IMG/VR virus record: IMGVR_UViG_3300021407_000002
Location: 1-57,107 of that record
Strand: one strand, 5' to 3'
From: a virus
DNA: 57,107 nucleotides
Under the pieces are notes generated by a model that was not told the DNA's origin, made no database searches, and saw nothing but the letters and a program-made list of their open reading frames with translations. A program made the position numbers and the translations under genes. Within the stretch, counting starts at the first letter, position 1. Every line of letters starts with the position of its first letter. Of this stretch, positions 10,200 through 48,141 are shown piece by piece.

Positions 10200-11641
10200 G
10201 GGCCAGCCTCCAATGCCGCCACGCGCAGCTCTAGTGCCGCGATCGTCGCATTGACGTTGGCAATCGCGGTGTCGACATATCCGCGGTTTGCAGCATGGGC
10301 GGCGAGCACAGGCGGAACGTCCAGGGTCAAAATGCCGTTGATGGTCCCGCCGCTGAGCTGCAAATAGCGGGCATCGGCGGCAGCTTGGGTCAGCAGTGGT
10401 GCAACCGCATCATCGACATATTGCCGGTTGACTGCATCGGTGGCGGCGGCCGGGCCGAGCAAACTGGTAATCCGATTGTTGACCATGCTCAGCGGCACGC
10501 TCGACATCGCCGTGGTCGGTGTCCACTGCCACATAACGACGCCGTTGATGTCGACCACAACGGCACCAGCCGCGCCGAATAGTCCTGTCGTCGGCGCGCC
10601 AATCTGCAACGCGGGTGCATTCAGTGCACCGTTCGGCAGCAGCAGCGGTCCGGTCAGCGTGCCACCAGCCTGTTGCAGGTATTTCGCGTCGGCATCGGCC
10701 TCAGTGATCCCGCCGCCCCCGCCGCCACCGCTGGCAATGCCACCAGACGGCTCGACCCCTGGCAGGAACAGCGACCAGTCGGCGTTCTGGCTGCTCGGCA
10801 CTCCTTCGGTCCTGGCCAGCGCCATCCAGAGCGAATACCCGAGCCGCACCACGTCGCCGCTGACGTAGCTGTCGCCTGGCTGATAGGATCCGCGATAGCG
10901 AAACACTGTGACGTCGAGGGGTTCGGATACCTCGTCATCGTCGAAGATGAGGCCAAGCAGGCCAGGCCCCGGGCTATACGGTGCCCTGATGCCCCTGCCT
11001 GGTCGCCCCTGTAGGCCAACACCCCCAGGCGTGCCGGCCGGCCCAGGCAGGCCCTGGGCGCCTGTAGCGCCTCGCTCGCCGGCTGGCCCTGGCTTGCCAC
11101 GATCGCCCTCGTGTCCGTCAGCTCCACGCGCCGCCACGATTTGCCAGCCAGGTCCACCGAGAGGCCCCGGCTGCTGGTGGAGTGCCCGCCAGGTGGCGCC
11201 GTTGTGCGCGACCTCATCGCCGGCCCCGTAGTCACCGTCGAGGGTGTAGAGACCGCGATGGAGAGGCAGCGGCAGACGCACCGGAAGGTCGACCACGTTG
11301 CCTGATGCCAGCGTAACGACGAAGCCGAATTGACGCGGGTCGGCCCCCTCTTGGTAGGCATGCACCGCGCGGATGCCATCGGCCAGCAGCAACCATTCGC
11401 CGATCCTGCCAGGTGGTCGAGCTGCTGTCGGCTGGCGTGCCTGCCACAAGCCGCCATTGAAGTGGACCACGGCGGCCTGCTCGTAGATGTCACCCTCGCG
11501 CCAGACGCGGGCGGCCTGGGTGAGATCGATCGGCGCGGTGCGGGCAGGTTCCGCGATGCCGATCAGTCGTCCAGCTTGTGGCGCATTGAACCGATCAGCC
11601 AGAGCTGCGGCCACGGCTTCGGCGATTTCGGGGATGTCCAT
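10196..11641 (-). CDS. Collagen-like virion fibre protein C (shortest paralogue)
   Basis: 481 residues. It has three carbohydrate-binding-like modules of the W-x-G-x-x-Y-E..VV..NGGLWQA type (about residues 45-90, 130-172 and 250-295) and a collagen-like Gly-X-Y stretch (about 172-216) between the second and third. A Gly run follows, then fibre repeats (ADAKYLQQAGGTLTGPL, ADARYLQLSGGTINGIL) and a coiled-coil end. It shares this N-terminal plan with the next two genes and a 65-residue module around MWQWT and PLSMVNNRI with paralogue B. Its position between portal and connector suggests a head or neck fibre; host-surface binding is inferred. Confidence 0.85.
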   Translation of the reverse strand: MDIPEIAEAVAAALADRFNAPQAGRLIGIAEPARTAPIDLTQAARVWREGDIYEQAAVVHFNGGLWQARQPTAARPPGRIGEWLLLADGIRAVHAYQEGADPRQFGFVVTLASGNVVDLPVRLPLPLHRGLYTLDGDYGAGDEVAHNGATWRALHQQPGPLGGPGWQIVAARGADGHEGDRGKPGPAGERGATGAQGLPGPAGTPGGVGLQGRPGRGIRAPYSPGPGLLGLIFDDDEVSEPLDVTVFRYRGSYQPGDSYVSGDVVRLGYSLWMALARTEGVPSSQNADWSLFLPGVEPSGGIASGGGGGGGITEADADAKYLQQAGGTLTGPLLLPNGALNAPALQIGAPTTGLFGAAGAVVVDINGVVMWQWTPTTAMSSVPLSMVNNRITSLLGPAAATDAVNRQYVDDAVAPLLTQAAADARYLQLSGGTINGILTLDVPPVLAAHAANRGYVDTAIANVNATIAALELRVAALEAGP

Positions 11642-14079: not shown

Positions 14080-17000
14080 TACTGCGGCCCCATATCCGAC
14101 AAATAGATTTGCGTGCGGTGATCATCGAAGCCGCTCCCGACGCCCATCATCGTGATAGCCGGACCAGACAACATTCGAACTTGAATCGATATAGTCGGGT
14201 TGTTGCCCGTCACCGCCGCCATGAACGCGATTTGGCCGCCGCTGATGTCCTGCGCCACGGTGGTCGTCTTTTGATGGAGGCTCTGCCGGATGCGGGCAGT
14301 GCTGCCGTTCACGCCCCATTGGAATAACCAACTACTATTAAGCGCTGCGGTCGATGTAAGACCTGGAACAACGATGATCGAGACAAACGAATTACCTCCG
14401 CGAGGAATGTTGAACGTGCCCGTCCAGAGCGTAAGGAAATTCGCAGTCAGCACGAGCTGGTTTGGTTCTATAAGTCGGCTTAATCCGCGCCCGTATCGCG
14501 CATCGCCGTTGATCGTATCGATGATCGCGCGGCGGTTCGTTCCGTTGTTGTCCTCGATCTGCGGCTGGGTGTTGGCAGTGTGGCAACGGATCATCATACC
14601 GGTGCCGAATGCCTTGTAGAAGCGGCCACCCGAGTTTGTTGTAAGGCCATAACCATCACCAGCAGCAACGAAGTCGCGGTTTACGTTTTCGACTATTCCA
14701 TACAGTTCGATATACCGCTCGATGTTGCCCGCCTCGGTCGCGATGCCGACAATGTTTAGACCACGATTGAACAGCCTCGCGCCGACCTTGCCATCGTTGA
14801 CGTCAGTCGGGGTGCCATGGCCGAAGCGAACGAAGCCGCCATTGGTCATGGTGAGGTTGCTGGTCGCGAGCGTAGTGCCCGCTATTTCGAGGCCCGTAAG
14901 CAGGGCGCGTTGTGTGCCGCCGAGCGTGACGCCGCCAGCCAGTGCCTCGGGCGGTTTCGGGATTATGACTTGATTTGTGGTCTGCACGTCGCGCGTCATA
15001 CCCGTGCAGTGCAGCTTAAAGCGTGGCGAAGCGCCGGCGGTGCGTATGCGCGCCTCTAGTCGTTTTGGGTTCGCATTGGCCGTATCACTTAACCGAAACT
15101 GATCGAACAGAAGACCGCTAGGATTGCGCGACATCGATACGATCGACATCGTCGCAGCACCGAACGTCGTGGTGACCTCCAATACGAACGAGCAATCAAT
15201 GTTGGTGCCGTAAATATCGGCTTGGAAGCGGAAGCTGCCGTATGCCGGCAAGGTTATTAGAAGCATCCAGTTATTCGCTGCGTAATTCGTCGCCGATGGC
15301 ACGCCTTCCCAGTAGTCGCCCTGGTTATAGCCGTATAGGTCGACTGTAGAATAATCCGGCACGGCTGGCGCTACCGGGATCGCGAGACGGGCACGAAATA
15401 GCATGTTGTCAAAGCGGACGATTTCACCGGCCGTGATGTTCAGGCCAGCCATCCAATCGCGCACGCGGCCCTGATTGGCATCGACATAGCGCCGGGTCGC
15501 CGCATGCAGTTCCGAGACAGGATCATCGAACAGGGTCAAATACCCCTGCATATCATCGCCAGTCTTGACGATATAGCGCGCGTCACCCTCCGGCCGGGTC
15601 AATCCTCCTCCGGAACCTGTCAGGTGCTGCCACTCGCCCAAGGTCGACGACCAGAGAATCCAGTCGTGGTTAAAAATCGTCTGCCCGCCGATGCCAGGCA
15701 CGCCGGCCGGCGCATTTTCAGGCACCTGCGGGTCGTCCGTCTCTGCAATGAAGTAATCGCCTGGCTGCGCCGCCCAGGTGATCAGGTCCGGGTTATTCGC
15801 CGCCACGCGCCACAAGCCTTGATAGCGGATGAGTGAAGTTGCAAGCGTATCGATGTAACCCTTGCGCGCAAGATCATTGTCATCGATCGGATCGCCGGCG
15901 AGCGTGCGCACCTGGTTTACGACGGTGATCATGCCCGAGCCCAGCCCGATGCGCAGCGGAACGTCCGCGATCGAACCGTCTGCGGCATGACGGACGATGC
16001 CAAGGTCCTCGGCCTGGCCTATCATCGGCGTAACGCCGAAACTCCACTTCCCCGCCCCCTCGCGGGCGAACTGCAATACCTCACCGTCGATCCCGTCGAG
16101 CTGCAAGGCAGCGATCGAGCCGGCGACGGTGCCAAGTGAGACTGACGATGACGGCCCGGTATCTTGAAAGCGCACCACCAGGTTGCCGGTCATGGTATCG
16201 CCGAGCTTGCTCACGAACAGATCCGGCCCGCGATCGAATAGCCCGTCGACATATTGCTTGGTCGACGCATGCAGGTTTGCGACCGGATCGGCGTGCAGCG
16301 TTAGAAAGCCGGTCATCTCGCCACGATCACCGCCGCGACGCATGATCCCGGTGAGTTCGTTCAAGACCTCCGCGCCGTTCCCGAGTTCATCGAGAACGAA
16401 TAAATGGTCCTGACGATCTGCTTGCAGGCAAAGCCCTGTCACTGCGCCTCTTGCAGCAACGAAGACGCCGAAGCGCTCAGTTTCCCATATGATGCCGGGC
16501 GCGCGATTGATCGGCAGAACTGGCGAACCCACGTCGAAGTTTAGGTCGCCGGTCATCATGTCGCCGGCTCTGACCACGAATAGACCGTCAGCCTGGTCGA
16601 CGTATGCCTTGCGCACCAGGTCATCAGCGCCGATCGGATCGCCGCTCACGGTCATTGGCTGGCGCAGCTCCACGTGGCCATCGGCCCACGAGACGCTAAA
16701 ATCGACCGTCGGCGGAAGCCCGTTCCGCAAAATGGTGAAGTCTTGCCGCGCGTCGTAATGCAGCGCGCCGACTTCCCAGCGTGGCCCGGCCGGGTCAGCC
16801 CATTGAATGAGCGTGCCCTCACCACCCTCTAGGCGGAATGTCGCCCGGCCGAGGGTTTCGTTACCAGGTGGCCCTTGAACATTCCTGATTAGAATGCGGT
16901 TGTTGGTGACGGTCAGCGGCCCGGTCATCACGTCGCCGGTCTTGGCGACATAGGCACCAGGCAGCAGATCGTTAAAATCATCGACGTAACGTTTGGTCAC

Positions 17001-19031
17001 GGCGTCTTGCGGCTGGGTCGGGTCAGCACTCAGTTCCAGGTGCGGCGCCTCACCTGGCACGTCAGGAGGGCGCGAGCGCATCAGGGTCTCGGCACCCTGT
17101 AGCACGCCGGGATTTTCCACCCGGAAAAGGATACTCGGGCCGCCGACGACATCCGACCGCGTCGCATAAATCCTGGCCAGGCCGCCAGCATCGTCTGCCC
17201 AGATGAGCGGCGGTGCAGCTCCGCTCTGATCGCCGTCCTTGTGCAGGAAGACGGAATGATTGATCTGCAACGCGCCGTCGCTCGCCTGGAACCGGATCGG
17301 CACATCGACCGGTTGGCCGTTCTCGAAACGAACAAAGCTCAGATCGTAATTGCCTGCTTGCAGGCCCGTCGTGCCGATAGTCCAACGCCGCTGCCCGTCC
17401 GCCTCGAAGCGCACGAGTGCTGCCTCGGTCCCGCGCAATATAATGGCTGCATCGCCGAAGCCCGAGGTCAGGACAACCTCGGCGCCTGGCGCCCCCGGCG
17501 CTGTGACGCTTAGATTGCCGGTCATCGTATCGCCAGCCTTGAACACATAGAGGTCGTCAGCTTCAAGGCGCGTCAGCCCGCCGCCGCTCAGGTGCTGCCA
17601 TAGGTCAAGCTCGTGCGACCAGATGACGAAGTCGAGATTATGGATCGTTGCGCCGCGCAAGCCAGGAACATCCGCCGTAACGATTTCCGGGATCGCCGGG
17701 TCGGCAGTCTGCGCGGTGTAATAATCACCAGGGTTCGCCAGAAGCGCGGCGTCGATCAGATCCGGATCATTTAGCGCAGGCTGCCACAATCCTTTGTATG
17801 TCGTCTTCGCGCCGACGACCGCATCGACATAGGCTTTCGTGGTGGCATGCGTCGGGTGCGTCGGCGGCCCCGACAAGCCGAGCGCGCCGGCCATGACATC
17901 ACCGGCCCGCATGACATAGGTGTCCGAGCCGGGAATACCGCCGCCTGATGACGGCTCCACCCCAGGCAGGAACATCGCCCAGGCCGGCGTCGTGGCACTG
18001 GGCACCACGTTGGTGCGTTCCCGCGCGATCCACAGGTTGAAACCGAACCGCACCACGTCGCCCGAGGCATAGCTCTGACCTGGTGAATAGGTGCCGGCGT
18101 AGCGGAATACTGTCAGGTCGAGGGGCGGTGAGACCGTGTCGTCGTCGTATTGCAGGGTGAGCAGGCCAGGCCGTTCCTGCCAGACGCTGGCGATGGATCG
18201 GCCGCGAGGCCCGACCTCGCCGGGACGCCCCTGCAAGCCTTCCTGGCCGGGTGCGCCGGCTTCGCCTTGCTCACCCTGCGGCCCTCGCTCGCCCTGCCTC
18301 CCACGCCCCCCACGTTGGGCCACAAGTGCCCATTCATCGGACGGCGGTGAGCTGGTCGCCTTATCCACCAGGCAGCGCCACGACGAGCCGTCAAGCGCGA
18401 CCTCGTCGCCCAGCTCATAGACCACGTCGCCCCGATACTGGCGGCGGTGCAGTGGGATCGGGAAGCGCAGAGGCAGCTCCCGCCGCAGTCCGTCGCTCTG
18501 ATCAATCCCAAGCATGAACGAGCGCGCGTCGAGCTGGGCAACGTCGATCTCGTGCAGACCGTCTGCAATGATGCGCCACGTCGCTGCAGCGGGTCCTGGT
18601 GCCTCGGTCGTGCGGTCGATTGCCTGCCAGGTGCCCCCGAGATGCCGGGCAATCTCTCCGGGGTCATAGACGCGGCCGGGGACGTAGGCATGGGCGATCG
18701 TCAGGTGACCGTCGCGGCCATCCCGTGGACGTGGCGCGGTGGCGAACAGGGCCATCAACCGATCGGGCATGGCCCTGGTTTCTTGCGCCACCAGATTGTG
18801 CAGCGCGCGCACCGCGTCGGCGCTCTGCCGGATGGAATCTTCCGCGCGCCGCCTGGTCTCTTCGAGCAGCTCATCGGCCTGGCTCGTGCGCTCTGCCAGG
18901 CGATCGGCCAGAGCTAGCTCGAATGCGTCAAGCCTGGCCTGGACATCTTCGCGCAGCCGCACCAGCACGGGCGCGACCGCCCGCACGACTGCCTCGGTAG
19001 CAGGGTCAAGCCGCCCGAGATCGCCGTCCAT
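14079..19031 (-). CDS. Giant collagen-like virion fibre protein A
   Basis: At 1650 residues this is the largest protein of the genome. Order: a coiled-coil segment rich in Arg/Glu/Ala (about 20-90), a binding-like module (115-160), a second (195-240), collagen-like repeats (241-278), a third module (about 305-350), then a long series of RAGDVMAGAL/KAGDTMTGNL repeats alternating with TKAYVDAVV-type segments. Two copies of a domain with GDYYTAQTADPAIPE and GDYFIAETDDPQVPE also occur, and it ends with a beta-rich tip. It overlaps the portal gene by 26 nt. I infer a head/neck-attached trimeric fibre because it is encoded straight after the portal. Confidence 0.87.
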   Translation of the reverse strand: MDGDLGRLDPATEAVVRAVAPVLVRLREDVQARLDAFELALADRLAERTSQADELLEETRRRAEDSIRQSADAVRALHNLVAQETRAMPDRLMALFATAPRPRDGRDGHLTIAHAYVPGRVYDPGEIARHLGGTWQAIDRTTEAPGPAAATWRIIADGLHEIDVAQLDARSFMLGIDQSDGLRRELPLRFPIPLHRRQYRGDVVYELGDEVALDGSSWRCLVDKATSSPPSDEWALVAQRGGRGRQGERGPQGEQGEAGAPGQEGLQGRPGEVGPRGRSIASVWQERPGLLTLQYDDDTVSPPLDLTVFRYAGTYSPGQSYASGDVVRFGFNLWIARERTNVVPSATTPAWAMFLPGVEPSSGGGIPGSDTYVMRAGDVMAGALGLSGPPTHPTHATTKAYVDAVVGAKTTYKGLWQPALNDPDLIDAALLANPGDYYTAQTADPAIPEIVTADVPGLRGATIHNLDFVIWSHELDLWQHLSGGGLTRLEADDLYVFKAGDTMTGNLSVTAPGAPGAEVVLTSGFGDAAIILRGTEAALVRFEADGQRRWTIGTTGLQAGNYDLSFVRFENGQPVDVPIRFQASDGALQINHSVFLHKDGDQSGAAPPLIWADDAGGLARIYATRSDVVGGPSILFRVENPGVLQGAETLMRSRPPDVPGEAPHLELSADPTQPQDAVTKRYVDDFNDLLPGAYVAKTGDVMTGPLTVTNNRILIRNVQGPPGNETLGRATFRLEGGEGTLIQWADPAGPRWEVGALHYDARQDFTILRNGLPPTVDFSVSWADGHVELRQPMTVSGDPIGADDLVRKAYVDQADGLFVVRAGDMMTGDLNFDVGSPVLPINRAPGIIWETERFGVFVAARGAVTGLCLQADRQDHLFVLDELGNGAEVLNELTGIMRRGGDRGEMTGFLTLHADPVANLHASTKQYVDGLFDRGPDLFVSKLGDTMTGNLVVRFQDTGPSSSVSLGTVAGSIAALQLDGIDGEVLQFAREGAGKWSFGVTPMIGQAEDLGIVRHAADGSIADVPLRIGLGSGMITVVNQVRTLAGDPIDDNDLARKGYIDTLATSLIRYQGLWRVAANNPDLITWAAQPGDYFIAETDDPQVPENAPAGVPGIGGQTIFNHDWILWSSTLGEWQHLTGSGGGLTRPEGDARYIVKTGDDMQGYLTLFDDPVSELHAATRRYVDANQGRVRDWMAGLNITAGEIVRFDNMLFRARLAIPVAPAVPDYSTVDLYGYNQGDYWEGVPSATNYAANNWMLLITLPAYGSFRFQADIYGTNIDCSFVLEVTTTFGAATMSIVSMSRNPSGLLFDQFRLSDTANANPKRLEARIRTAGASPRFKLHCTGMTRDVQTTNQVIIPKPPEALAGGVTLGGTQRALLTGLEIAGTTLATSNLTMTNGGFVRFGHGTPTDVNDGKVGARLFNRGLNIVGIATEAGNIERYIELYGIVENVNRDFVAAGDGYGLTTNSGGRFYKAFGTGMMIRCHTANTQPQIEDNNGTNRRAIIDTINGDARYGRGLSRLIEPNQLVLTANFLTLWTGTFNIPRGGNSFVSIIVVPGLTSTAALNSSWLFQWGVNGSTARIRQSLHQKTTTVAQDISGGQIAFMAAVTGNNPTISIQVRMLSGPAITMMGVGSGFDDHRTQIYLSDMGPQ

Positions 19032-20781: not shown

Positions 20782-22257
20782 TCAGGGTCCTGTTGGTGGA
20801 GCACCGTCATTCGCCAGCGCCCAGACAATGGCGACATCGTGACGCCGTGCCCAGGAATGCGACATCCGCAGCCGCATGAACACCATGTCATTCTGGAACG
20901 CCGAATAGATGCCGGAATTCGGCGCGGGCGGGCTTGGTGCACCCGGTGGCGTAGCCGGCGCGTCGTCAAGTTGCACGCTGGCTTCTTGCGATGCATCAAT
21001 CACTGGTGCCATATCGTCGGCCCAGATTATTTGCGAGGCATCGACCAGCGCGTAGGCAGTCATCGTCCCGGTGCCAGGTGGGAACGGGATCGGGATCGCG
21101 GTCGTATCTATGATCGGATAACCGAGCAGGGTGCCTGCATCAATCTCCGCTTTGAAGGCGAAGATTTCCTGCACGGTGCGCAACAGCCGCAGGTATTCTT
21201 TCGTCCGCGCGTTCATTATCCACACGGGCGCATTCATCGGCACGTTGTTACGGCGCAGCTCCCACAACATCGCCCGCAATGCCAGGGTGACCGCCGTCAC
21301 GTCAGCTCCACCTGGCCCGATGGGTGCTGGTATCGCGCCCTCCGGTAGTGGCAGCAGTCCTTGCAGGATGCCCGCAGGGTTGGCAGCAGCGGCGATGGTG
21401 GAGAAGAAAACGCTATCGACCGTCCGCGCGGTCCCTTCGAGCATGTCATCACGGATCAGCATCTCGGTCGGTGGATCCGATCGCCGCAACAGTTCCTGGG
21501 TTTGTGGAACGATCACGGCGAGCTTGCTCGGGACCAACGTCATCCGGTCAAAGATCAGGCGATTGACGCGGATCGACGAGCCTTCCCCAACATATCCACC
21601 GGCCACGCCGCCGGTCTGTTTGGGAATAAGCAACGACCCAGCGTTGTTAAAGCTGAGCCGCCGCATTGATGGCATCCGCCCAACGATGAGCATCGGGCGC
21701 AGCATCTCGATAAACTCGCTGGCCAGATATTCAAAGCGGGTTATGAGGCCGCCGCCAAGGTTGGGAGGGTCGTTGGTTCCCATCGGCGGCACTGGCGTGC
21801 GAAACTGCATTGCGACACTGCGTTGGATGATCTCGGTTAGCTCGTCATCCCCCCATCGCATGCGGGAATACTCAGCAGCGTTCCAGACGCCGGCCACCGA
21901 AATCGCGATGGCCATCCTGGTAAAGTCGGCCCCCTTGAACCGATCGCGCCGCTCCATCTGCACGACCGGGTTGCTGCGCTGCGTCGCGAGCACCATTGCC
22001 GTGCCGGGCCGATTGCCTGGCACATTGCCAGCAGTCGGAACAGCGGCGCGCGCGAGAGCGGTCTCCGCATCAGTCAAGTGACGCAATTGGACGTCGATGC
22101 CGTCCAGCCGTGAACGTGCCTCGCCGATCGTCGCGGTCTCAGTGTCATTCAGGTCGCGGTTGTCGTCGAGGGCAGGCTGTAGCGCAGTCTCGTAAGCGCG
22201 GACCATCTGCCCACGCTCGGTTTGCAACGCGGCGATGCGTTGCGACAAGGTCGTCAT
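20782..22257 (-). CDS. Major capsid protein (HK97 fold)
   Basis: 491 residues. The first 65 residues form a coiled coil (MTTLSQRIAALQTERGQM onward), probably a scaffold-like segment removed by the protease. The rest carries HK97-type features: GGLITRFEYLASEFIEMLRP, LIPKQTGGVAGGYVGEG, the MTLVPSKLAVIVPQTQELLR strand-helix, SVFFSTIAAAANPAGILQGL and MNARTKEYLRLLRT. It follows the protease gene after 12 bases. Confidence 0.95.
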   Translation of the reverse strand: MTTLSQRIAALQTERGQMVRAYETALQPALDDNRDLNDTETATIGEARSRLDGIDVQLRHLTDAETALARAAVPTAGNVPGNRPGTAMVLATQRSNPVVQMERRDRFKGADFTRMAIAISVAGVWNAAEYSRMRWGDDELTEIIQRSVAMQFRTPVPPMGTNDPPNLGGGLITRFEYLASEFIEMLRPMLIVGRMPSMRRLSFNNAGSLLIPKQTGGVAGGYVGEGSSIRVNRLIFDRMTLVPSKLAVIVPQTQELLRRSDPPTEMLIRDDMLEGTARTVDSVFFSTIAAAANPAGILQGLLPLPEGAIPAPIGPGGADVTAVTLALRAMLWELRRNNVPMNAPVWIMNARTKEYLRLLRTVQEIFAFKAEIDAGTLLGYPIIDTTAIPIPFPPGTGTMTAYALVDASQIIWADDMAPVIDASQEASVQLDDAPATPPGAPSPPAPNSGIYSAFQNDMVFMRLRMSHSWARRHDVAIVWALANDGAPPTGP

Positions 22258-22269
22258 GGTGTTGTGCCT

Positions 22270-22947
22270 TTACGGCCGACCCGAAACACCGGGCAGTGAA
22301 AGCGACTTGAACCGCGCTAGGTCAGCAAGCGCCCGGTCACGCACCGCAAACGTGCCCACAGGCTTCGGGGCAAGGTGCTGATCGGGATTAGCGCGGAACA
22401 CTCCATCAGCGAATAGCCGCCGAAGGAATCTCGGTGAGCTGTCGATTGACTTGGCCAGGCCAAGCGCGTCCGGGTTGGCCGGCACGGTGCAGAGTGACAG
22501 CTCAATCAGTTGATTACGAAGGAAGCGGTAACCGTCCCAGCGGCCCCGGTCGTCAAGCCGGTCCTCCATCTCGATCGGCACGAAGCCCACCGAGACGGCG
22601 CGGATCAGCCGCAGGTTGACGGCGCGGGCCAGCTTGTCGACGAACTCATCATGCCCCTCGGGTGCGAACTCCACCCGCGCAACGGTCTCGCTGCGGTCGC
22701 GGTCAGGTTCGAACTCCCGCACCCAGCCGATCGGCATTCCCCAGGAATTGTGCGACCACAGAAACACCGGGTTGCGCCAGAAGTCCGCCAGGTCCCATTC
22801 CTGTTCGATGATGTCGCCGTAACGATCGATCCGGTTGGTCGAGGCGACGAAGCTGGCCATGCGGTTAGCATCGAGCGGCCCGATTTCAGCTTGCTTGACC
22901 TGGTGGCCAGGGCCGAGCGCGCCGACACGATCGGATAGCGTGCTCAT
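22270..22947 (-). CDS. Prohead maturation protease (HK97 gp4, peptidase S78)
   Basis: 225 residues with the S78 signature: RYGDIIEQEWDLADFWRNP, VFLWSHNS (catalytic His about 66), LIRAVSVGF (Ser about 119) and LIELSLCTVPANPDAL. It cleaves capsid N-termini during head maturation. The ATG overlaps the upstream acidic gene by 4 nt (ATGA at 22944-22947). Confidence 0.95.
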   Translation of the reverse strand: MSTLSDRVGALGPGHQVKQAEIGPLDANRMASFVASTNRIDRYGDIIEQEWDLADFWRNPVFLWSHNSWGMPIGWVREFEPDRDRSETVARVEFAPEGHDEFVDKLARAVNLRLIRAVSVGFVPIEMEDRLDDRGRWDGYRFLRNQLIELSLCTVPANPDALGLAKSIDSSPRFLRRLFADGVFRANPDQHLAPKPVGTFAVRDRALADLARFKSLSLPGVSGRP

Positions 22948-23438
22948 GGTGACAGCAACACGTCGGACGTGTCCTCGACCTCGACCACCAGATCGCCCTC
23001 GTCGTCCTCCGTAACTGCAACGATCGTCTCGCCTTCCTCGGCGGTGATGGTCACTTGGTCCTCGTCACCCTCGACCAGCAACCTGGCATCGAGCGCGCTT
23101 TCGATCGTGGCGTCGTAGGGTTCCATATCCGGAGTCACGTCCTCATTGTCGACGAAATCCTCGTCTTCCTCTTCCGTGGTGATCGACGGGCTTTCCGGCT
23201 CGAACTCGGGAGTCACGTCCTCCCGCGTCACAGGGCTTGCCTGGGCTTGTGCAAGGATCCGGTCGGCCAGCCATAGCGCGGCACTGCCACGCCCCTGGTG
23301 CATCGTCCCAGGCGATCCAGGGGTGGCAGCTCCACCAGCCTGCATAACCGGGGGGTCGGAATGCACATCCGGTGCCCCGGCGCGCGTATTGTAGACCTGG
23401 CCACTGCGATGGCCGGGGGTCATTGACGGCGATGCCAT
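22944..23438 (-). CDS. Acidic hypothetical protein preceding the prohead protease
   Basis: 164 residues, very acidic over residues 75-160 with duplicated REDVTPEFEPESP / NEDVTPDMEPYD segments and EEEDEDF. The N terminus is Pro/Gly/Ser-rich. No family recognised. Its place directly before protease and capsid, with strong negative charge, would suit a scaffold, decoration or capsid-chaperone role (inference). Confidence 0.75.
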   Translation of the reverse strand: MASPSMTPGHRSGQVYNTRAGAPDVHSDPPVMQAGGAATPGSPGTMHQGRGSAALWLADRILAQAQASPVTREDVTPEFEPESPSITTEEEDEDFVDNEDVTPDMEPYDATIESALDARLLVEGDEDQVTITAEEGETIVAVTEDDEGDLVVEVEDTSDVLLSP

Positions 23439-23463: not shown

Positions 23464-25197
23464 TCATGCGGCGGCTAACGCTCGTCGGGCGTGCAGGTAG
23501 CCGACACGATGCCGGGGCAACCAGCTCGGCCAACAGACCTCGCAAACTGCCTTGCTGCTTGCTCGTTCAATCACCGCAGCGCAGCCGCAGCACATCGACC
23601 CGCGCAACATCAGATCACAGCCGCCACCGGGATCAGGGCGTTCGCGTTGCCAGCTCCCCGCTAATGTCCAACCGCACAACCAGTTGGGTTCGATGACGGC
23701 GCGGAAACCAGCATCACGAAGCTGTCCAATGATTCGTTCTGCCTCAGCTTTCCAGTCCCGGCCGGCGACCTTGTGAAAGTCGATGATGACGGCCCGCAGG
23801 TTCGGCTGGACGATGGGCAAGTCATACTCGCCGCCCTCGATGTCAATCTTGACAATCGTGGCGCCGGCGACTGCCTGTTCGTAGCTCATTGCAGCAACGC
23901 GGGTGCCAGTTTTGGCCGATGACGGTTGGGTGCTGTTCGTTACGCCGATGCCATGCGACACGAAAAAATTGACCTCGCCGACATGAGCTGCGGGCACGAC
24001 CGCAGCGCGGCGCAATTCCAGGTTCGGCAGTTTGGTCAGCGACAGCACCTGGTGCGAGAACGGCGTCGGCTCATAGGCCACGACGCGCTGCACCGGAAAG
24101 CGCGCGCAGCGGATGGCATAGGTCCCAACATAGGCACCGATATCCGCCACGACATCGGAATGCCGGAGACTGATTGAGTTGCATTCGCGCATCGTGGTGA
24201 TGAACGGTTTGCGAACGCCGTCCGAGATCACGTTGTGTCCACCAGGAACATTGCCGCCTTGCATATGCCGAAAGGATAGCTCCACCAGTCCACCACGTGC
24301 TGCCGCCTTGGGTTGCCGGCGAGCAGCTTTTGACGGGTGATGAGGCACGACCTTCATACCGAAGTTGTCGACCCCGGACGACACCACCAGGTCGTCGCGG
24401 CGCACGAGCTGGTTGGTCTTGAACTGTGAATAGTCGACATAGTGATGGTGCCGACCATACCGCCATGCCAGTCGGGCGACATCAGGATGCAGCGCGACCA
24501 GCATCCGCGACTTCGCCGCCGTGCCATGGGCATACAGTTCGGTCGTATTACCGCCAGGCACGAGCTGGGTTGCAATTTTCTTTTGCAGGAAGGCGTTAAA
24601 CAGCACAGTGCACAGGCCAGCTTTCAGCATCCGCAGGGATAGGTCAGCGTCTTCGTTATAGCGGCCGCGCCACCGAAACGGCAGGTCGGTCCGAATGAGG
24701 TTGCAGGAAAAGATCCGGGTATTGAGCACGAACGGCCCGTTTCTATACCGACGAGGCACGAAGGACTCATAGTGTGGTCCCGCCATCGCGACGTTGGTGT
24801 AGCGTTGTGCAAAATCCTCCATACAGCGGAATATCGTTCCGTCCCCGACAGGTATCTTGGCATTCTCGTGCAGTCGATAGAATTCCCGAATATTATCGTC
24901 GATCACCCAATGCCACGCCGCACCGGCTGCAACGGCTTGTGCCCAGGCGAAGTTGCGGGCAGGTCCCGACCCTTTTGATTTGGTGTCGCCATGATCGTCG
25001 CACGGGTCGTAGTCACGCTGAAACTGCTTGTCGAGCACCAGGATACGCGAACGATCGATCACTGCCGCATACTTCGTATATTCCTGTTCCTCAACAATGA
25101 CGTGATAGGGCACGCCGATGCGCTCGAAGACGCGCATGGTGATCCTGGTCTCGTATCGACCCTTGGACGGGATGTAAATCGGGAATTCAGGGTTCAT
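23464..25197 (-). CDS. TET-associated-type glycosyltransferase fused to FkbM-type methyltransferase
   Basis: 577 residues. Residues 1-285 match the TET/JBP-associated glycosyltransferase (TAGT) type: PIYIPSKGRYETRITM, CDDHGDTKSKGSGPARNF, WHWVIDDNI (97-103) and the acidic GRYNEDADLSLRMLK (178-192). Residues about 340-480 form a Rossmann methyltransferase of the FkbM type: DVVADIGAYVGTYAIRC (SAM loop, 349-363), VVAYEPTPFS and ATIVKIDIEGGEYDLP (447-461). A small Cys cluster near the end (C536, C537, C539, C552, C555) could bind zinc. TAGT enzymes are known to sugar-modify phage DNA bases after TET oxidation. Here no TET or base-modifying partner is visible, so the acceptor (DNA, glycan or virion protein) is open. 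The gene overlaps the ParB-like gene by 11 nt. Confidence 0.88.
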   Translation of the reverse strand: MNPEFPIYIPSKGRYETRITMRVFERIGVPYHVIVEEQEYTKYAAVIDRSRILVLDKQFQRDYDPCDDHGDTKSKGSGPARNFAWAQAVAAGAAWHWVIDDNIREFYRLHENAKIPVGDGTIFRCMEDFAQRYTNVAMAGPHYESFVPRRYRNGPFVLNTRIFSCNLIRTDLPFRWRGRYNEDADLSLRMLKAGLCTVLFNAFLQKKIATQLVPGGNTTELYAHGTAAKSRMLVALHPDVARLAWRYGRHHHYVDYSQFKTNQLVRRDDLVVSSGVDNFGMKVVPHHPSKAARRQPKAAARGGLVELSFRHMQGGNVPGGHNVISDGVRKPFITTMRECNSISLRHSDVVADIGAYVGTYAIRCARFPVQRVVAYEPTPFSHQVLSLTKLPNLELRRAAVVPAAHVGEVNFFVSHGIGVTNSTQPSSAKTGTRVAAMSYEQAVAGATIVKIDIEGGEYDLPIVQPNLRAVIIDFHKVAGRDWKAEAERIIGQLRDAGFRAVIEPNWLCGWTLAGSWQRERPDPGGGCDLMLRGSMCCGCAAVIERASSKAVCEVCWPSWLPRHRVGYLHARRALAAA

Positions 25198-25879
25198 CGA
25201 CGTAACGCTTATCCGCGAAACGTTCTCGCTCGGCCTCGGGATACCAGATATATTTTGCCTTCTCGCTGATCACCTGCTCGATGAGCTGGGCGAAGGCATC
25301 AACCGCCGCCTGGTCCTTGAAGTGCACTGCGATCGAGCGGAATGGTCGGTCGTCCGGCTGGTCGTATGCTGGCATGCCGTCCCACTCACCGTCCGGGTCG
25401 GATACGCCGAGCTTAAACAGCGGTTCCAGTTCGAAGTCGGCGAACCCGGTCAGCGACAGGTCGACGCCCATGTCGCGCAGGTCCATCATTTCAAGTTTAA
25501 GCGTCCCGGCATCCCAGTCGGCGTTCAGCGCCAGCTTGTTATCTGCCAGCGTGTAAAGCCGCCGCTGCGTGTCCGACCAGCCGCGCGCAACCATTACAGG
25601 AACGGTCTCGATTGCCAGTTGATGCGCCGCCAGCACGCGACCATGCCCGGCGATGATCGTTCCCGCCTCGTCCACCAGCACCGGCATCGTCCAGCCCCAT
25701 TGCCGGATCGAGGCAGCGATCTGCGCGACCTGGGCGTCCGAGTGCGTCCGCGCATTGTTGGCATAGGGAATTAACTTTGCGATCGGCCAACGCTCGACCG
25801 CATCGGCTGGCCAGAGCGGCCCGCCAGTCGGTGCTTTTTCCGAACGACCGCCGCTTTTGGGCTTGATATTAGGGGTCAT
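25187..25879 (-). CDS. ParB-like nuclease-domain protein beside the glycosyltransferase
   Basis: 230 residues from ATG 25879. PIAKLIPYANNARTHSDAQV, IRQWGWTMPVLVDEAGTIIA and IIAGHGRVLAAHQL (75-88) give the ParB/Srx fold usually found at the N terminus of phage DNA adenine/cytosine methyltransferases. RRLYTLADNKLALNADWD follows as in those fusions, but the methyltransferase part is absent. It is the first gene of the long late operon and overlaps the glycosyltransferase by 11 nt, so the two probably act together, perhaps in DNA modification (inference). A longer frame upstream lies antisense to the next gene and is rejected. Confidence 0.85.
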   Translation of the reverse strand: MTPNIKPKSGGRSEKAPTGGPLWPADAVERWPIAKLIPYANNARTHSDAQVAQIAASIRQWGWTMPVLVDEAGTIIAGHGRVLAAHQLAIETVPVMVARGWSDTQRRLYTLADNKLALNADWDAGTLKLEMMDLRDMGVDLSLTGFADFELEPLFKLGVSDPDGEWDGMPAYDQPDDRPFRSIAVHFKDQAAVDAFAQLIEQVISEKAKYIWYPEAERERFADKRYVDEP

Positions 25880-31192: not shown

Positions 31193-32260
31193 TTAATGCA
31201 ATGATTGCTTGGGCGCCGTCGTCCCCTCAGCTTTCGCTTTATCGGCTACCTCCAACAGCAACCCGATATCCACTTCGCGCAGGCGGTTGACGATGAGGTA
31301 TGCCCGCTCGCCGAATTCCTCGATCAGCCAAAGCCAATAATTCGCCGTAGTCTCGCGGCGGTGATCGATTAGTGGAATCTGGCGCGGCGGTGCTGCCGCT
31401 GCCACCTGCTCGGCGACCGTGGCCTTGTCCAGGCGCTTGCGTTCTTGCTTCGCTATCAGCTTTTTGGCCTCGGATCGCAGCGCTTTCACTTGTAGCTCTG
31501 CGGTGTCATGGGCTGCGGCGAAGCGCAGCGAGTGGTGGCGATTGGCGAGGCCAAGATTGATCGCTTCCTGCTTGGCCCGCTCGCTTAGCTTGTCGATCAT
31601 CTTGGCGGTGCCGACCGTTGGATGACTCACCCCCATCTCGCGCGCAGCCGCACGGTTGCCTCCAGTCCTGCCGCGCCCTCCTGCGGTATAAACTGGTAAA
31701 CCATTTTCCAGTTTATACCCCTTGTTCGCCTGCCATTTCGCCACCTTCGCCTTGTGGCACTCATAGCAGGTGGTGTTCGACACATAGCGTTTGCCGTCAT
31801 GCCCGTTCACGCACTGCTCGGCTGGATAGTAGAAGGTTTCCCCGGCTGCCTTTGCTTCATCGCGAGTGGCAAAGCGTCGGTCGGGCATAGGTCCGCGCTC
31901 CCGTGCTGCCTGCGCGCGCTGCGCAATCAATCCGGCCCGCGCTGTTATGTGCTGGCTGCGCTCCAACGCAGTGAGGTCGGCACGTTGCAGGTTCTCATCG
32001 ATGGCCCAGATGCGCGCGTCGCGTTCGTTATCGAATATCACCGCATCGATGTGGTCTTCGCGGTTCGCCTTCATCGCGGCAACGCGGTGCTCGCCGGTTA
32101 CCAGGTGCGGCTTGCCATTGACCATGCGCACGGTGATCGGGGTGCGCAGTCCGATCTCCCTAATACTCTCGGCGAGGCTCGCGACGGCGGACGGTTGGAG
32201 CGCCCTAAGGCGCTCCGTTACCAAAACGATATCGCTGATCCTGATACGCGCTGTTTGCAT
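31193..32260 (-). CDS. ParB-domain protein with internal zinc ribbon and HTH
   Basis: 355 residues from ATG 32260 with GGAGG upstream. Residues 5-95 are a ParB N-terminal domain (AESIREIGLRTPITVRMVNG, HLVTGEHRVAAM at 52-63). A zinc-ribbon-like insert follows (C150, H154, C165, C168; RYVSNTTCYECHKAKVAKWQ), then a helix-turn-helix NRAAAREMGVSHPTVGTAK (202-220). The rest is charged and helical. Similar phage ParB proteins regulate transcription; partition is unlikely without ParA. Confidence 0.82.
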   Translation of the reverse strand: MQTARIRISDIVLVTERLRALQPSAVASLAESIREIGLRTPITVRMVNGKPHLVTGEHRVAAMKANREDHIDAVIFDNERDARIWAIDENLQRADLTALERSQHITARAGLIAQRAQAARERGPMPDRRFATRDEAKAAGETFYYPAEQCVNGHDGKRYVSNTTCYECHKAKVAKWQANKGYKLENGLPVYTAGGRGRTGGNRAAAREMGVSHPTVGTAKMIDKLSERAKQEAINLGLANRHHSLRFAAAHDTAELQVKALRSEAKKLIAKQERKRLDKATVAEQVAAAAPPRQIPLIDHRRETTANYWLWLIEEFGERAYLIVNRLREVDIGLLLEVADKAKAEGTTAPKQSLH

Positions 32261-33186
32261 CACACGACCTCCGGAAGCCGCACGGTCGAGTCCCATCTGA
32301 AGTGTCGTGGGTTGCGCCGCTCGATTAAACCATTCCATGCGATGATGATTGCCGCAGCCGCCTTCACGGCGACATCGCGGGTGCTGCGGGCTGTGGCGGC
32401 GCGGAAGTGTTCCCGCACACGTAGCACCGGGCTGCGCGGCGGAAGGTTTGCACCGCTCACCATAGCTTCCCAGAAGGCGTCCAGCCGATCACGCCTCGCG
32501 GTGCCGTGCGCTATGGTCCAGTATGCAAGTCCCGAAGCCGAAGGCGTAACAAACAAGCGCAGCCGCATCCCGGTTTTGATCGCCATATCGAAGTCGGGGT
32601 CGGTGCCGTAAAGCTCATCCAGCCTTTCGGTCAGCTTGTTTCGGTCGAGCGATGCCGGTTCCTGAAGCTCGATGCGGAGGATTAACGCCACCAGGGCTTG
32701 CCCCGCCATGACATTGAGATGGCCATGTTCGCGCGCGATATCGGCGACGCTGCGCGAGATACCCTGGTCGTAATAGTCCCGCTCCGCAGGATCGCAGCCG
32801 AAGCATACGGTAAAGGTGATCACGCATCCGGACAGGATGACCGCGCGCAGTCGGTGCTGGCCGTCGCGCATCACACCCTCGATGTCGAAACAGATCGGGT
32901 GCGGGACCTTCGCTCTATAGCGATTTTCCAACATAGCGCGGGCCATGATCTTTGCTCGTGTCTCACGCAACGGGCGGTTATTAAAATTGCGGTCGAGCAT
33001 TGCCTGCGCCATCTCAGGCCCGATACTTATTTCGAGGTAGACGTGACCGACGATAGTGTACTGCGCGAGAATGGCTGCAAGCTGGTTGACAGCCGAAGCC
33101 TGCGTGCCAGTGGTCGGCAGCTCACGCGGCGCGATCGGCACTGCGTGCGCACTTTTGGTATCGCGTTTCGTCTGCATCTGTGGCAT
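32260..33186 (-). CDS. ParB/sulfiredoxin-fold phage protein
   Basis: 308 residues. The core ISIGPEMAQAMLDRNFNNRP, LRETRAKIMARAMLENRY, PICFDIEGVMRDGQHRLRAV (96-116) is the ParB-like pattern of many actinobacterial and proteobacterial phages. The helical C-terminal half is variable. AAGGA precedes ATG 33186. The stop overlaps the next ATG by one base (TGATG). Function unknown; regulation or nuclease activity possible. Confidence 0.8.
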   Translation of the reverse strand: MPQMQTKRDTKSAHAVPIAPRELPTTGTQASAVNQLAAILAQYTIVGHVYLEISIGPEMAQAMLDRNFNNRPLRETRAKIMARAMLENRYRAKVPHPICFDIEGVMRDGQHRLRAVILSGCVITFTVCFGCDPAERDYYDQGISRSVADIAREHGHLNVMAGQALVALILRIELQEPASLDRNKLTERLDELYGTDPDFDMAIKTGMRLRLFVTPSASGLAYWTIAHGTARRDRLDAFWEAMVSGANLPPRSPVLRVREHFRAATARSTRDVAVKAAAAIIIAWNGLIERRNPRHFRWDSTVRLPEVV

Positions 33187-33215: not shown

Positions 33216-33632
33216 CTATCGAGCCGGGGGGCGGTGTGAAGCGCCCTCCGGCTCCCTTGTTTCAGGCGCTCGTGCCGCCTGAACCTCGATGCCGGCACGT
33301 CGCAGCGCCGGTATGCAAGCAGCGCGGACGCGGCTATTTGGCCCGCCCGGCCCATAGTTGGCAGTGAGGTAGTGCAGCAACCTTGCTTGTATCTTCTCGG
33401 TAAGGCCGCAGCACAACGTCGCGGGATCGGTATTGGCGACCAGCCAATTTTCCAATCCGCCCCAGCCTCCCAAAACGCCCGCTGGCCCGGGTTCGTTGTG
33501 CTTCATAGTGCGCGCTTCATGCGGCAGGAAATGGAGCACGATCCCCGGTTTCGCGCGGCTGGGCTTGCGGTTTGCTCTGCGTGCTCGCCGAGCGCCCGGT
33601 ATCAGTGGAATGCCTGGCAGTTGATCGTTCAT
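33216..33632 (-). CDS. Hypothetical protein of the early operon
   Basis: 138 residues; Arg/Ala/Pro-rich ends and a helical centre (LTEKIQARLLHYLTANYGPG, RVRAACIPALRRAGIEV). ATGA overlap with the zinc-ribbon gene. No domain recognised. Confidence 0.68.
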   Translation of the reverse strand: MNDQLPGIPLIPGARRARRANRKPSRAKPGIVLHFLPHEARTMKHNEPGPAGVLGGWGGLENWLVANTDPATLCCGLTEKIQARLLHYLTANYGPGGPNSRVRAACIPALRRAGIEVQAARAPETREPEGASHRPPAR

Positions 33633-33880
33633 GCTATCCCCCTCCGTTCAAGTGCCTTTCGAGCGGCGACGCCTTTCCGATACGGACGGCAGTTGGTGCA
33701 GAACATCGCCGGCCGGCCGCCTTCGGGACTGCGCGCAAGCCGTGTTCGGCAGATCACGCAATAAAGCGGAAGCGCCCGCCAGGCGCGTGATTGGCAGGTG
33801 TCACAGCGTATCCTCGGCCGCCCGCGTTGCACCTTGTGGATAAGTTGCCGCCGGCAGTCGATGCAGTGGCGCGGCTTCAT
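33629..33880 (-). CDS. Double zinc-ribbon protein
   Basis: 83 residues from ATG 33880 with four CxxC motifs: CIDC, CDTC, CVIC and CTNC, making two zinc ribbons. Arg/Lys-rich between them, so nucleic-acid binding is likely. Its 3' end is duplicated in the 53-residue gene at 31008. Coupled by 4-nt overlaps to the VRR-NUC gene and the next gene. Confidence 0.78.
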   Translation of the reverse strand: MKPRHCIDCRRQLIHKVQRGRPRIRCDTCQSRAWRALPLYCVICRTRLARSPEGGRPAMFCTNCRPYRKGVAARKALERRGIA

Positions 33881-34308
33881 GCTGCCTCGATCACGCGCCG
33901 GGCGCGCGGTATCTGCCATTGATCAATACAGGCCAGCACTTCTGTCGCATCGCGCGCCACCCCGACGCGGCCACCGGCCACCAGCACAGCAGCAGCCACC
34001 GACTGCTGAGCTGCGGACAGCTCACCGTCGTCGGCCTTGATCTCGACGAGGTGGGCGAGGCCGCGGAACAGGATGAACGTGTCGGGAATGCCGGCGATGA
34101 TCCCGCGCCCGATCCGCACGCCAGGCACCTCGCCCGCGTAGTTTGCATGATCGATGCTCCACCAGACCACGCCAGCTCTGCTGACCTTGCCTGGTGGCGC
34201 GATCTCAATCCGCAATACGTCGGCTATCTGCTTCTGCAGCGGGTGCTCGCGCACCACCGGAGGGGTTAACGTGAATCGACGCGCGCTCGGGCTGACCGCG
34301 CGCGGCAC
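33877..34308 (-). CDS. VRR-NUC domain nuclease
   Basis: 143 residues, GTG start. E22 in REHPLQKQIAD, GRGIIAGIPDTFIL (67-80) with PD, HLVEIKADDGELSAAQQ (86-102) with the E-x-K pair and the conserved Gln are the VRR-NUC signature (PD-(D/E)XK superfamily). Phage members act on branched DNA during replication or recombination. Second gene after the Cro-like regulator. Confidence 0.88.
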   Translation of the reverse strand: MPRAVSPSARRFTLTPPVVREHPLQKQIADVLRIEIAPPGKVSRAGVVWWSIDHANYAGEVPGVRIGRGIIAGIPDTFILFRGLAHLVEIKADDGELSAAQQSVAAAVLVAGGRVGVARDATEVLACIDQWQIPRARRVIEAA

Positions 34309-45913: not shown

Positions 45914-47617
45914 TCAAAACACCAGCAGATCGCGATCCGTATAGATATAACCTCCGCCATCCTTCTCGTGTGCTATTGACACGCCCAGCGCGATGATCGT
46001 TGCAATGGCACAGTCGATTTTTTTCTCCACCGACTCCTTGCGGGGATACACGTTCGATCTCGCGTCGTAGTGCCCAACGACGTTGCCGATGCACCAGGCC
46101 AGCACCGGATCCCCAGTGTGCATGATGCGGCGCTCACGCATCAGCGCATCGAGCAGCTTGGTCGGCTCGGAAAAATTAAGAGTAGAGCTGCGGTATTCCT
46201 GCATCGGGAAGCCCTCATTGCGGAGGCGCTGGGATAGCTGCATGATCATATACGGGTCGTAACCACAGGCCCGCATGTCATACTCAGCAGCAGCAGCCCG
46301 CAACCAATCTTCCACCGCCTCGAAATCAGTGGTCTCGCCTTGCGTCACGGTGAGCATGCCCGCGTCCGCCCACTGCACATAAAGCGGATTGCGCTCAGGG
46401 TCGACCGCCGCATCAGGCAGGAATGCATTCGAGAACACTGCATAGCTCGTCTTGTCAGTCTCAGCATCGTAACGCGGAAAGATCAATACAGCAGCGGCAA
46501 TATCGACCCGCGTCGCCATGTCGATCGCTGCAAAGCATGGCTCGCCCTTGAAGTCTGCCAGGCGCAGAGCTGGACTAGCGCACGCCTCCCATGCACCAGT
46601 GTCGAATAATGCATTGTTGGCACTCACCCATGCATTCAGGTGGCGCGTTTTGAAAGCTGCCTGCAAGGCCGGCGAGGCCAGTGCCTGGCGGGCCAGCGCG
46701 TGCAGAGCATCCGGCTGCACCAGCTCACCCCAGCCTGGGTTTGCCTTCTGCCAGGTCTCTTCGGACCATGGGTCGTCGTCAGGGTCCGCGTCGTATATGC
46801 ACCCGAAAAAATGGTCATCGTTCAAGATGCCGCCGAGAACCTGCTCGGTATAGTTCCAGACCTGGCGGCCGACGCCGGTAGCATTGTCCGTCGCGGTGCT
46901 GATGGAGATTAGCAGCGGCTGCAATCTTTTGCCGGTGGCAGTGATCAGCACGTCATAGATAGCTGATGAGCGGTGAGACCCGATCTCGTCCAGCACGGCG
47001 AAATGCACGTTCAGGCCATCCAATGCCTTGGCGTGGGCACTGAGCGCGCGGAACGATGAGCCGGTGCGGGCTTGTGAGACCGTGTGAGCATTGACCTGCA
47101 CGCCGTAGTGCCGGCGAAACTCGGGATTCTTCTCGGTCATCACCTTAGCCATGTCCAGCGCGATCGTTGCCTGCGACCGCGAGACTGCTGCCGAGTAGCC
47201 TTCAGCTCCACCCTCGGCCTCGGTGAACGTTACGAACAGGGCAAGCACTGCCGCGAGGGTCGTCTTGCCATTGCCCCGCGCAATCCAGATTGATGCCTGG
47301 CGGAACCTCCGTGCCCCGGTCGCGCGGTCCACAAACCCGAATAGGTTGATGAGTAACCATTTCTCGAAAGGCAACAACGTGATCCGCTCACCTGCCTTCG
47401 GTCCTTTGACGTTGACCATCAGGTGAGCGAAGACGATGGGTGCCTGGGCGCGTTTGGGATCGAACACCCACTCGCTATCGGGCTGCCTGGCTCGCTGCAG
47501 GTCGTCCAGGAACCGGCTGCAAGCCTGCCTGGCCTTCTTGCCTGCCTTGGTGCGACCACTGGCCACAGCGCGCGCGTAGGCGATCCCCTCGGTGACCACA
47601 TCGGGCAGCTTGATCAA
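45914..47617 (-). CDS. terL: Terminase large subunit
   Basis: 567 residues from TTG 47617, whose TTGA overlaps the small-subunit stop; GGAGG lies 5-9 bases before it. The ATPase domain has Walker A ARGNGKTT (113-120) and Walker B FAVLDEIG (206-213). The nuclease domain has AAIDMATRVDIAA (Asp near 366) and CGYDPYMIMQLSQ. HK97/P27-associated type, consistent with cos packaging. It docks on the portal to package DNA. Confidence 0.95.
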   Translation of the reverse strand: MIKLPDVVTEGIAYARAVASGRTKAGKKARQACSRFLDDLQRARQPDSEWVFDPKRAQAPIVFAHLMVNVKGPKAGERITLLPFEKWLLINLFGFVDRATGARRFRQASIWIARGNGKTTLAAVLALFVTFTEAEGGAEGYSAAVSRSQATIALDMAKVMTEKNPEFRRHYGVQVNAHTVSQARTGSSFRALSAHAKALDGLNVHFAVLDEIGSHRSSAIYDVLITATGKRLQPLLISISTATDNATGVGRQVWNYTEQVLGGILNDDHFFGCIYDADPDDDPWSEETWQKANPGWGELVQPDALHALARQALASPALQAAFKTRHLNAWVSANNALFDTGAWEACASPALRLADFKGEPCFAAIDMATRVDIAAAVLIFPRYDAETDKTSYAVFSNAFLPDAAVDPERNPLYVQWADAGMLTVTQGETTDFEAVEDWLRAAAAEYDMRACGYDPYMIMQLSQRLRNEGFPMQEYRSSTLNFSEPTKLLDALMRERRIMHTGDPVLAWCIGNVVGHYDARSNVYPRKESVEKKIDCAIATIIALGVSIAHEKDGGGYIYTDRDLLVF

Positions 47618-48141
47618 TCTTTCCTCCCGCCCTCGACGACCCGCAGGCTGCGAAGCAGCTCCCACCCGGTGCCGGGGTCCGCGTCCTCGTCCCTCGCATC
47701 AGGCACCTTGAATCGCGCACGGGCTGACGGGGTGAAACCCATCTCACCTTGCAGGTTGCGCATGATCAGCACGCAATGGTTGATGACCCGGAGATAGGGC
47801 GAGAGGCCGGGACCATCCTTGCGCTTGACCAGGAACGGCAACGGCTGGCCCTCGTCCAGTTTACGTTGCGCGACCACTGCCTTGGCGTGCCGGTCCACGA
47901 CCTCGATGTAGTTGGCAAACACCACCCAGTCGATGCGGCGCAGCAGATCGCGCGGCGCGTCCAACAGTATCTCGGCCCACAGCTCCCGCTGCGCGGCCGT
48001 CATCCATTCCGGCGCTGGCTTGTGGGCCAGGTCGCCGACAGCCTCCGGGTCGGCGCGGTTGCCATGCCGGCACGGCTGCAATGTCCCTTGCAGTTTCAGC
48101 ACGGCGGTCGGCTTCGGGTGCGGCCCCCCTTTGCGAGCCAT
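47614..48141 (-). CDS. terS: Terminase small subunit (P27 family)
   Basis: 175 residues beginning MARKGGPHPKPTAVLKLQGT, then PAPEWMTAAQRELWAEILLD, IDWVVFANYIEVVDRHAKA and LIMRNLQGEMGFTPSARAR, the P27 pattern. It recognises the packaging site. HNH nuclease gene and a non-coding gap lie just upstream. Confidence 0.94.
   Translation of the reverse strand: MARKGGPHPKPTAVLKLQGTLQPCRHGNRADPEAVGDLAHKPAPEWMTAAQRELWAEILLDAPRDLLRRIDWVVFANYIEVVDRHAKAVVAQRKLDEGQPLPFLVKRKDGPGLSPYLRVINHCVLIMRNLQGEMGFTPSARARFKVPDARDEDADPGTGWELLRSLRVVEGGRKD

Follow-up and report, generated by a model that had tools for sequence, protein, structure and literature searches.

A TAGT glycosyltransferase fused to an FkbM-type methyltransferase and paired with a ParB-like gene in a temperate phage: a candidate for late DNA glycosylation

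A phage gene was found that joins a TAGT-type glycosyltransferase to an FkbM-type methyltransferase and overlaps a gene for a ParB-like protein. What would such a pair modify, and where would its acceptor come from? The stretch analysed, referred to as the window, spans positions 1 to 57,107 of the IMG/VR record IMGVR_UViG_3300021407_000002 (57,107 nucleotides, bacterial virus). The record is classed as linear with no completeness given, and absences in the window are read with that.

The gene set of the window (integrase, RecT, Gam, sheath, baseplate, HK97-type capsid and terminase) is that of a temperate, contractile-tail phage. The baseplate hub genes lie at one end and the wedge genes at the opposite end. 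This suggested that the genome, for all its linear class, is nearly complete and circularly permuted.

The fusion gene (23464-25197, minus strand) is one uninterrupted reading frame of 577 aa, in the order TAGT, FkbM and a zinc-ribbon-like end. The features of the pair are as follows.

25187..25879, minus strand: ParB-like gene, 230 aa, with ParB_N (GHGR motif, residue 78) and a C-terminal TAGT-partner domain
25190..25396, minus strand: the partner domain (C-domain), about 68 aa, W-x-x-MP-E/A-F/Y ... K-x-K/R-x-x-W-Y/F-P, from the alignment of relatives
25187..25197, minus strand: ParB-TAGT stop/start overlap, 11 nt, also found in L002, L007, L008, L015 and other relatives
24343..25197, minus strand: TAGT glycosyltransferase domain, GT-A type, residues 1-285 (PF20691, E 1.4e-37; PHROG842, E 1.6e-44)
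23638..24279, minus strand: FkbM-type SAM methyltransferase domain, residues 307-520 (PF05050, TIGR01444, AF2 fold, identity to L051 and L202)
23518..23616, minus strand: zinc-ribbon-like end, CxxC-x12-CxxC, residues 528-560

Both domain calls of the initial annotation were confirmed by profile. The PF20691 match covered residues 5-211 with 130.1 bits (cut-off 27.5). The PF05050 match covered residues 352-499 with 26.0 bits (cut-off 22.7), and TIGR01444 gave 52.8 bits (cut-off 37.7). The GT-A type motifs of TAGT were intact (IDDN at 99, RYNED at 179), and DDN and NED were near-invariant among 28 aligned relatives. The FkbM motifs were also intact (DIGAYVGT at 352, YEPTP at 375, KIDIEGGEYD at 450). 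The domain resembles the FkbM family in passing both curated cut-offs and in its SAM-binding motifs, and differs in its tail and in its fusion to TAGT.

AF2 models were made of a fused relative (C-domain-TAGT, L044) and of the FkbM part alone. GT-A fold neighbours were found for the former, and the latter showed a Rossmann methyltransferase fold at moderate confidence (pLDDT 69). Structure searches with the TAGT, FkbM and C-domain sequences returned nothing usable; the matches to eIF3j and PRMT6 were weak and partial.

The terminal Cys cluster, also noted initially, consists of CCGC (536) and CEVC (552). It is kept in two separate FkbM relatives, L051 and L202, which argues against chance. The end may bind nucleic acid. 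The window FkbM, tail included, is 56% identical to that of L051 and 61% to that of L202, and the corresponding TAGTs are 47-51% identical. The fusion of TAGT to FkbM proper was seen in one record only, the window.

The ParB-like gene starts with ATG at 25879 and stops at 25187, and the 11 nt that it shares with the TAGT start (ATGAACCCTGA) agree with the overlap described before. Such an overlap may couple the translation of the two genes. The ParB_N match (PF02195) reached 24.1 bits, slightly under the Pfam cut-off of 26.3; other matches were to PHROG620 (E 1e-48) and Spo0J (E 0.001, phmmer). The initial annotation had it that this protein lacks its usual methylase. Indeed no methylase is attached, but in its place stands a different domain, the C-domain, the one normally paired with TAGT in this clade.

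About 130 relatives were compared overall. Nearly all those retrieved with the window protein carry a ParB-like gene directly 5' of TAGT, and the constant part of these upstream proteins is the C-domain (W-x-x-MP-E-F ... K-T-K-x-I-W-Y-P). It is covered by no Pfam model and resembles no solved structure. It is found in three settings: after ParB_N, by itself, and as an N-terminal part of TAGT, the last of these in Aeromonas phiAS5, Pectobacterium POP12, Vibrio 1.076.O and Vibrio 1.124.O, among others.

Linkage was counted over all loci for 127 distinct TAGTs (95% clustering) with enough upstream DNA. By the filter, 125 of them had the C-domain, either upstream or as part of TAGT itself (75 as ParB_N-C-domain, 35 alone and 15 fused). 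The remaining two, L043 and L125, also have it, slightly beyond the distance filter. An unbiased scan with the C-domain alone gave 79 further loci, and every one had a TAGT close downstream (79/79). In the AF2 model of L044 the C-domain was packed confidently against TAGT (mean pLDDT 88, pTM 0.87). By these measures the C-domain is the obligate partner of this TAGT clade.

One ParB_N-C-domain protein (L028:8478-10004, 508 aa) has an extra C-terminal region. Pfam matched ParB_N alone in it; by eye, the extra region is like a DXD sugar-binding glycosyltransferase (SDCVRLKSAASCNGIVLDMDAVLL).

A scan that used the terminase from one family of carriers supplied loci for comparing what follows ParB_N. 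In nucleotides, the sister phages L318 and L319 are 88% identical over 6.3 kb starting at TerS, and at the other flank, over 808 nt that include the ParB_N coding part, they are 94% identical. What lies between the flanks is the C-domain and TAGT in L318; in L319 the same ParB_N continues into an N6_N4_Mtase (PF01555, E 9e-29). L327, L358 and L360 have a fusion of this kind at that position, and L380 and L383 have N6/N4 methylases there. A more distant phage, L387, whose terminase is 70% identical, has a gene for Mom (PF25680, E 2e-51) after ParB_N and before TerS.

The methylase-bearing ParB is an alternative occupant of the slot also held by C-domain and TAGT, with exchange by recombination at the domain boundary behind ParB_N. 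The slot occupants of known function act on DNA, and this is the strongest argument that TAGT does so too.

The Mu-type Mom is, like the candidate here, a late modification enzyme, and a Mom gene is found in the same slot; as a GNAT-like enzyme with adenine as its target, Mom has a chemistry unrelated to that of TAGT. Fusions of ParB_N to N6/N4 DNA methyltransferases are known from prophages (PMC6536676, PMC12704722). They share the ParB_N and the genomic slot, but here a C-domain and a separate glycosyltransferase replace the methylase.

The arrangement also recalls the ParB-Tls locus. In PMC6536676, which cites Iyer et al. 2013, DNA-modification genes are placed between the ParB-like gene and TerL, and the ParB-like proteins are said possibly to direct DNA modification during packaging. 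Likewise, the window ParB-like gene adjoins a putative DNA-modification enzyme, many relatives consist of exactly ParB, TAGT, TerS and TerL, and the role proposed here for ParB is the same, steering modification during packaging. The window differs in that the modifier is a TAGT-FkbM fusion and the terminase is about 20 kb off. Its late block opens with the ParB-TAGT pair, and protease, capsid and portal come after.

20782..23438, minus strand: late operon genes directly downstream of the pair, comprising the next three
22944-23438, minus strand: 164-aa gene of no assigned function
22270-22947, minus strand: prohead protease
20782-22257, minus strand: HK97-type capsid
45914..48141, minus strand: terminase large and small subunits, adjacent to ParB-TAGT in many relatives

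TerL occupies 45914-47665, so the TAGT-FkbM gene is not located between ParB and TerL. Placement of TAGT from ParB to TerL is present in the relatives L027, L029, L039 and L041. A second, distinct ParB-like protein of 381 aa (31193-32338, minus strand; PHROG3264, E 9e-28) is encoded in the early block, with a weaker match to the endonuclease VII family.

FkbM accompanies 10 distinct TAGTs (the window and nine other loci) in several arrangements. It is fused to TAGT in the window and to ParB in L012. It is a separate gene between C-domain and TAGT in L051, L052, L163, L206, L212 and L215, and follows TAGT in L032 and L202. A scan with FkbM alone gave 15 loci. In five of these, which include the two closest, a C-domain-TAGT is adjacent.

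Other enzymes were inserted at the same unit. They were class I methyltransferases (L141, L154), radical SAM genes between ParB/C-domain and TAGT (L355:1948-3048, with SPASM, and L155:665-1705), an NAD-dependent epimerase (L196) and a second TAGT (L194). Erwinia and Pantoea prophages carry TAGT and ParB/C-domain genes of the L002 type, and L002 itself has a GT9-like enzyme and a methyltransferase directly upstream. A sugar-elaborating pathway would be expected to show such a repertoire. In it, the putative task of the FkbM domain would be O-methylation of a sugar hydroxyl.

Tandem duplicated TAGT genes were seen in L017:1824-3502, in L220:5944-7859 and in Vibrio phage Kuja (gp32/gp33). In L030:1901-4234 the TAGT frame runs on into a helicase-like C-terminal half as one ORF of 777 aa.

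Carrier hosts are highly diverse (Erwinia, Pantoea, Vibrio, Aeromonas, Tenacibaculum and a Verrucomicrobiaceae bin). In the lytic relatives Vibrio 1.124.O and henriette 12B8, the unit is placed among replication genes.

DNA glycosylation with O-methylation of the sugar is the likeliest function of the TAGT-FkbM protein, and we consider the following course of events probable. The ParB-like protein would bind or scan phage DNA through ParB_N, and its C-domain would recruit TAGT. Around packaging, TAGT would move a sugar onto the phage DNA, either onto a base or onto a group linked to one, and FkbM, being fused to it, would afterwards O-methylate that sugar. Virion DNA carrying this product may be protected against those nucleases of the host by which a plain sugar is tolerated or recognised. 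DNA as the acceptor is favoured by the methylase/Mom swap, by a TET gene in one relative (below), by the linkage of C-domain and TAGT, by the recurrence of FkbM, and by the position among replication genes in lytic relatives.

The name TAGT stems from a neighbouring TET/JBP dioxygenase. As stated in the initial annotation, homologues of TET/JBP (PF12851), cytosine C5 methylase (PF00145) and thymidylate synthase/dCMP hydroxymethylase (PF00303) were absent, with 0 matches for each in the window. The TET/JBP search was run twice, the second time with phage Nigel as a working positive control, which matched at E 4e-8, though under the Pfam curated cut-off. A still more divergent oxygenase could therefore escape the search. 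The divergent Fe/2OG enzyme for which a search had been proposed did not appear: of the 25 families that a Pfam scan listed for 44 further ORFs of the window, none was a 2OG oxygenase, a hydroxymethylase or a DNA methylase.

The T6-type TAGT belongs to the same Pfam family, PF20691. It is a beta-glucosyl-HMC-alpha-glucosyltransferase (PMC13216743) and reportedly glucosylates DNA-borne glucosyl-hmC (PMC13216743, PMC13390438), which also favours DNA as the acceptor here. In T6, dCMP hydroxymethylase and an alpha-glucosyltransferase supply the acceptor, whereas neither was found in the window, and Pfam scans of its ORFs gave no family of DNA alpha- or beta-glucosyltransferases. The window adds instead the FkbM domain and the ParB/C-domain partner.

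TET was found in one of about 85 TAGT records examined, L169, and its absence appears to be the rule for this TAGT clade. In L169, a TET/JBP protein (469 aa, PF12851 E 9e-21) lies 0.7 kb after a fused C-domain-TAGT, in a cluster with a second TAGT-family protein and a sugar nucleotidyltransferase; ribonucleotide reductase genes are upstream. From this gene content, the C-domain-TAGT unit occurs within a recognisable DNA-hypermodification cluster.

A co-conserved helper gene was sought in 12 further carrier genomes and the window, and none was found. Only ParB/C-domain and TAGT were common to all 13 genomes, with no conserved phage-encoded base-activating enzyme among them. The TET and thymidylate synthase tests combined found no supplier of a hydroxylated base in most relatives. 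These results count against DNA as the acceptor. Either the acceptor comes from the host or from enzymes that differ between phages, or the pair needs none.

The first of these alternatives keeps the classical order of a hydroxymethyl base followed by a sugar; the host, or a phage hydroxylase that escaped recognition, would have modified the base beforehand. The substrates of known DNA glycosyltransferases are 5-hydroxymethyl- or 5-hydroxy-pyrimidines (PMC13390438), and divergent enzymes can be missed, as the Nigel control indicated. Krischvirus phage SAP has glucosylated cytosines without recognisable synthases (PMC13390438), so that hidden routes to a modified base do exist. On the other hand, no candidate was common to the 13 carriers, and hosts ranging from Erwinia to a Verrucomicrobiaceae bin are very different. 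We regard this hidden first step as a serious possibility, although on balance doubtful. It refines the mechanism proposed above, so the two overlap and the likelihoods expressed here are not intended to sum to one.

In the second alternative, ParB/C-domain and TAGT would glycosylate unmodified bases self-sufficiently, with no hydroxymethyl handle, and FkbM would add the first O-methylated DNA sugar known. We think this unlikely. If true, the base chemistry would be new, a DNA glycosylation with unknown entry chemistry.

A gene resembling the uracil-DNA glycosylase superfamily lies between TAGT and FkbM in L202 (4279-4944). Its match (E 0.001) was below the Pfam cut-off, and it was not counted as evidence.

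The position of the pair in the window, beside head genes and not the terminase, speaks against DNA as the acceptor. TAGT could instead glycosylate a virion protein (capsid, portal or tail) and FkbM methylate that glycan, the ParB-like gene being a coupled but separate late gene. The pair is directly ahead of the protease and capsid genes, and the TAGT of Vibrio 1.076.O lies between portal and head morphogenesis genes. The closest solved folds to the TAGT of the L044 model include protein glycosyltransferases, such as collagen galactosyltransferase, in weak matches (TM <0.4). Such a target is hard to reconcile with a DNA methylase or Mom in the same slot of related phages, with the fusion of the C-domain either to ParB_N or to TAGT, and with the placing of the unit amid replication genes in other relatives. 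Capsid and portal types also vary widely across carriers. An acceptor other than DNA had been one of the options in the initial annotation; it stands as an alternative, weakened by the methylase/Mom cassette swap and by the TET-bearing relative, and modification of a virion protein is in our estimate quite improbable.

Glycosylation of collagen-like fibres, prompted by the collagen galactosyltransferase fold, was considered and dropped, as the TM was <0.4 and these fibres are not shared by the relatives. In the window, two large fibre-like virion proteins (11641-14079 and 14079-19031, minus strand) contain CBM5/12 (chitin-binding type) motifs with collagen-like repeats.

Lysogenic conversion, in which TAGT and FkbM would alter the lysogen surface by modifying a cell-envelope glycan, has in its favour that glycans are frequent substrates of FkbM enzymes and that a GT9-like glycosyltransferase and a methyltransferase accompany some cassettes. 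It is very improbable given the late-operon position, the ParB partner, the linkage to packaging genes and the strictly lytic phages that carry the unit.

TAGT, FkbM and the ParB-Tls locus are already known. So are solitary TAGTs, which a 2026 paper reports in 288 of 753 glycosyltransferase-bearing phage genomes, suggesting that they may encode novel transferases (PMC13216743). Fusion of TAGT to FkbM, the partner domain, the methylase swap and the sugar add-ons were not found in the literature searched, which excluded Iyer et al. 2013. With them, the solitary-TAGT class gains an anatomy, namely an obligate partner domain, a ParB-linked slot that DNA methylase or Mom can fill instead, and a set of accessory sugar enzymes that includes FkbM. 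The proposed late, ParB-coupled DNA glycosylation predicts TAGT-dependent modified nucleosides in temperate phages. Cultured carriers include Vibrio phages 1.076.O and 1.124.O and Aeromonas phage phiAS5.

Two further genes of the window were noted. A small protein of 96 aa (33629-33919, minus strand) has two CxxC...CxxC zinc-ribbon pairs. An ORF of 214 aa (39479-40123, minus strand) ends in a PEP-CTERM-like sorting signal (SPVPEPATLALLGVGLAGLGFIRRR), which is unusual for a phage; the scanned ORF batch that included it gave a Pfam PEP-CTERM match at E 3.5e-7.
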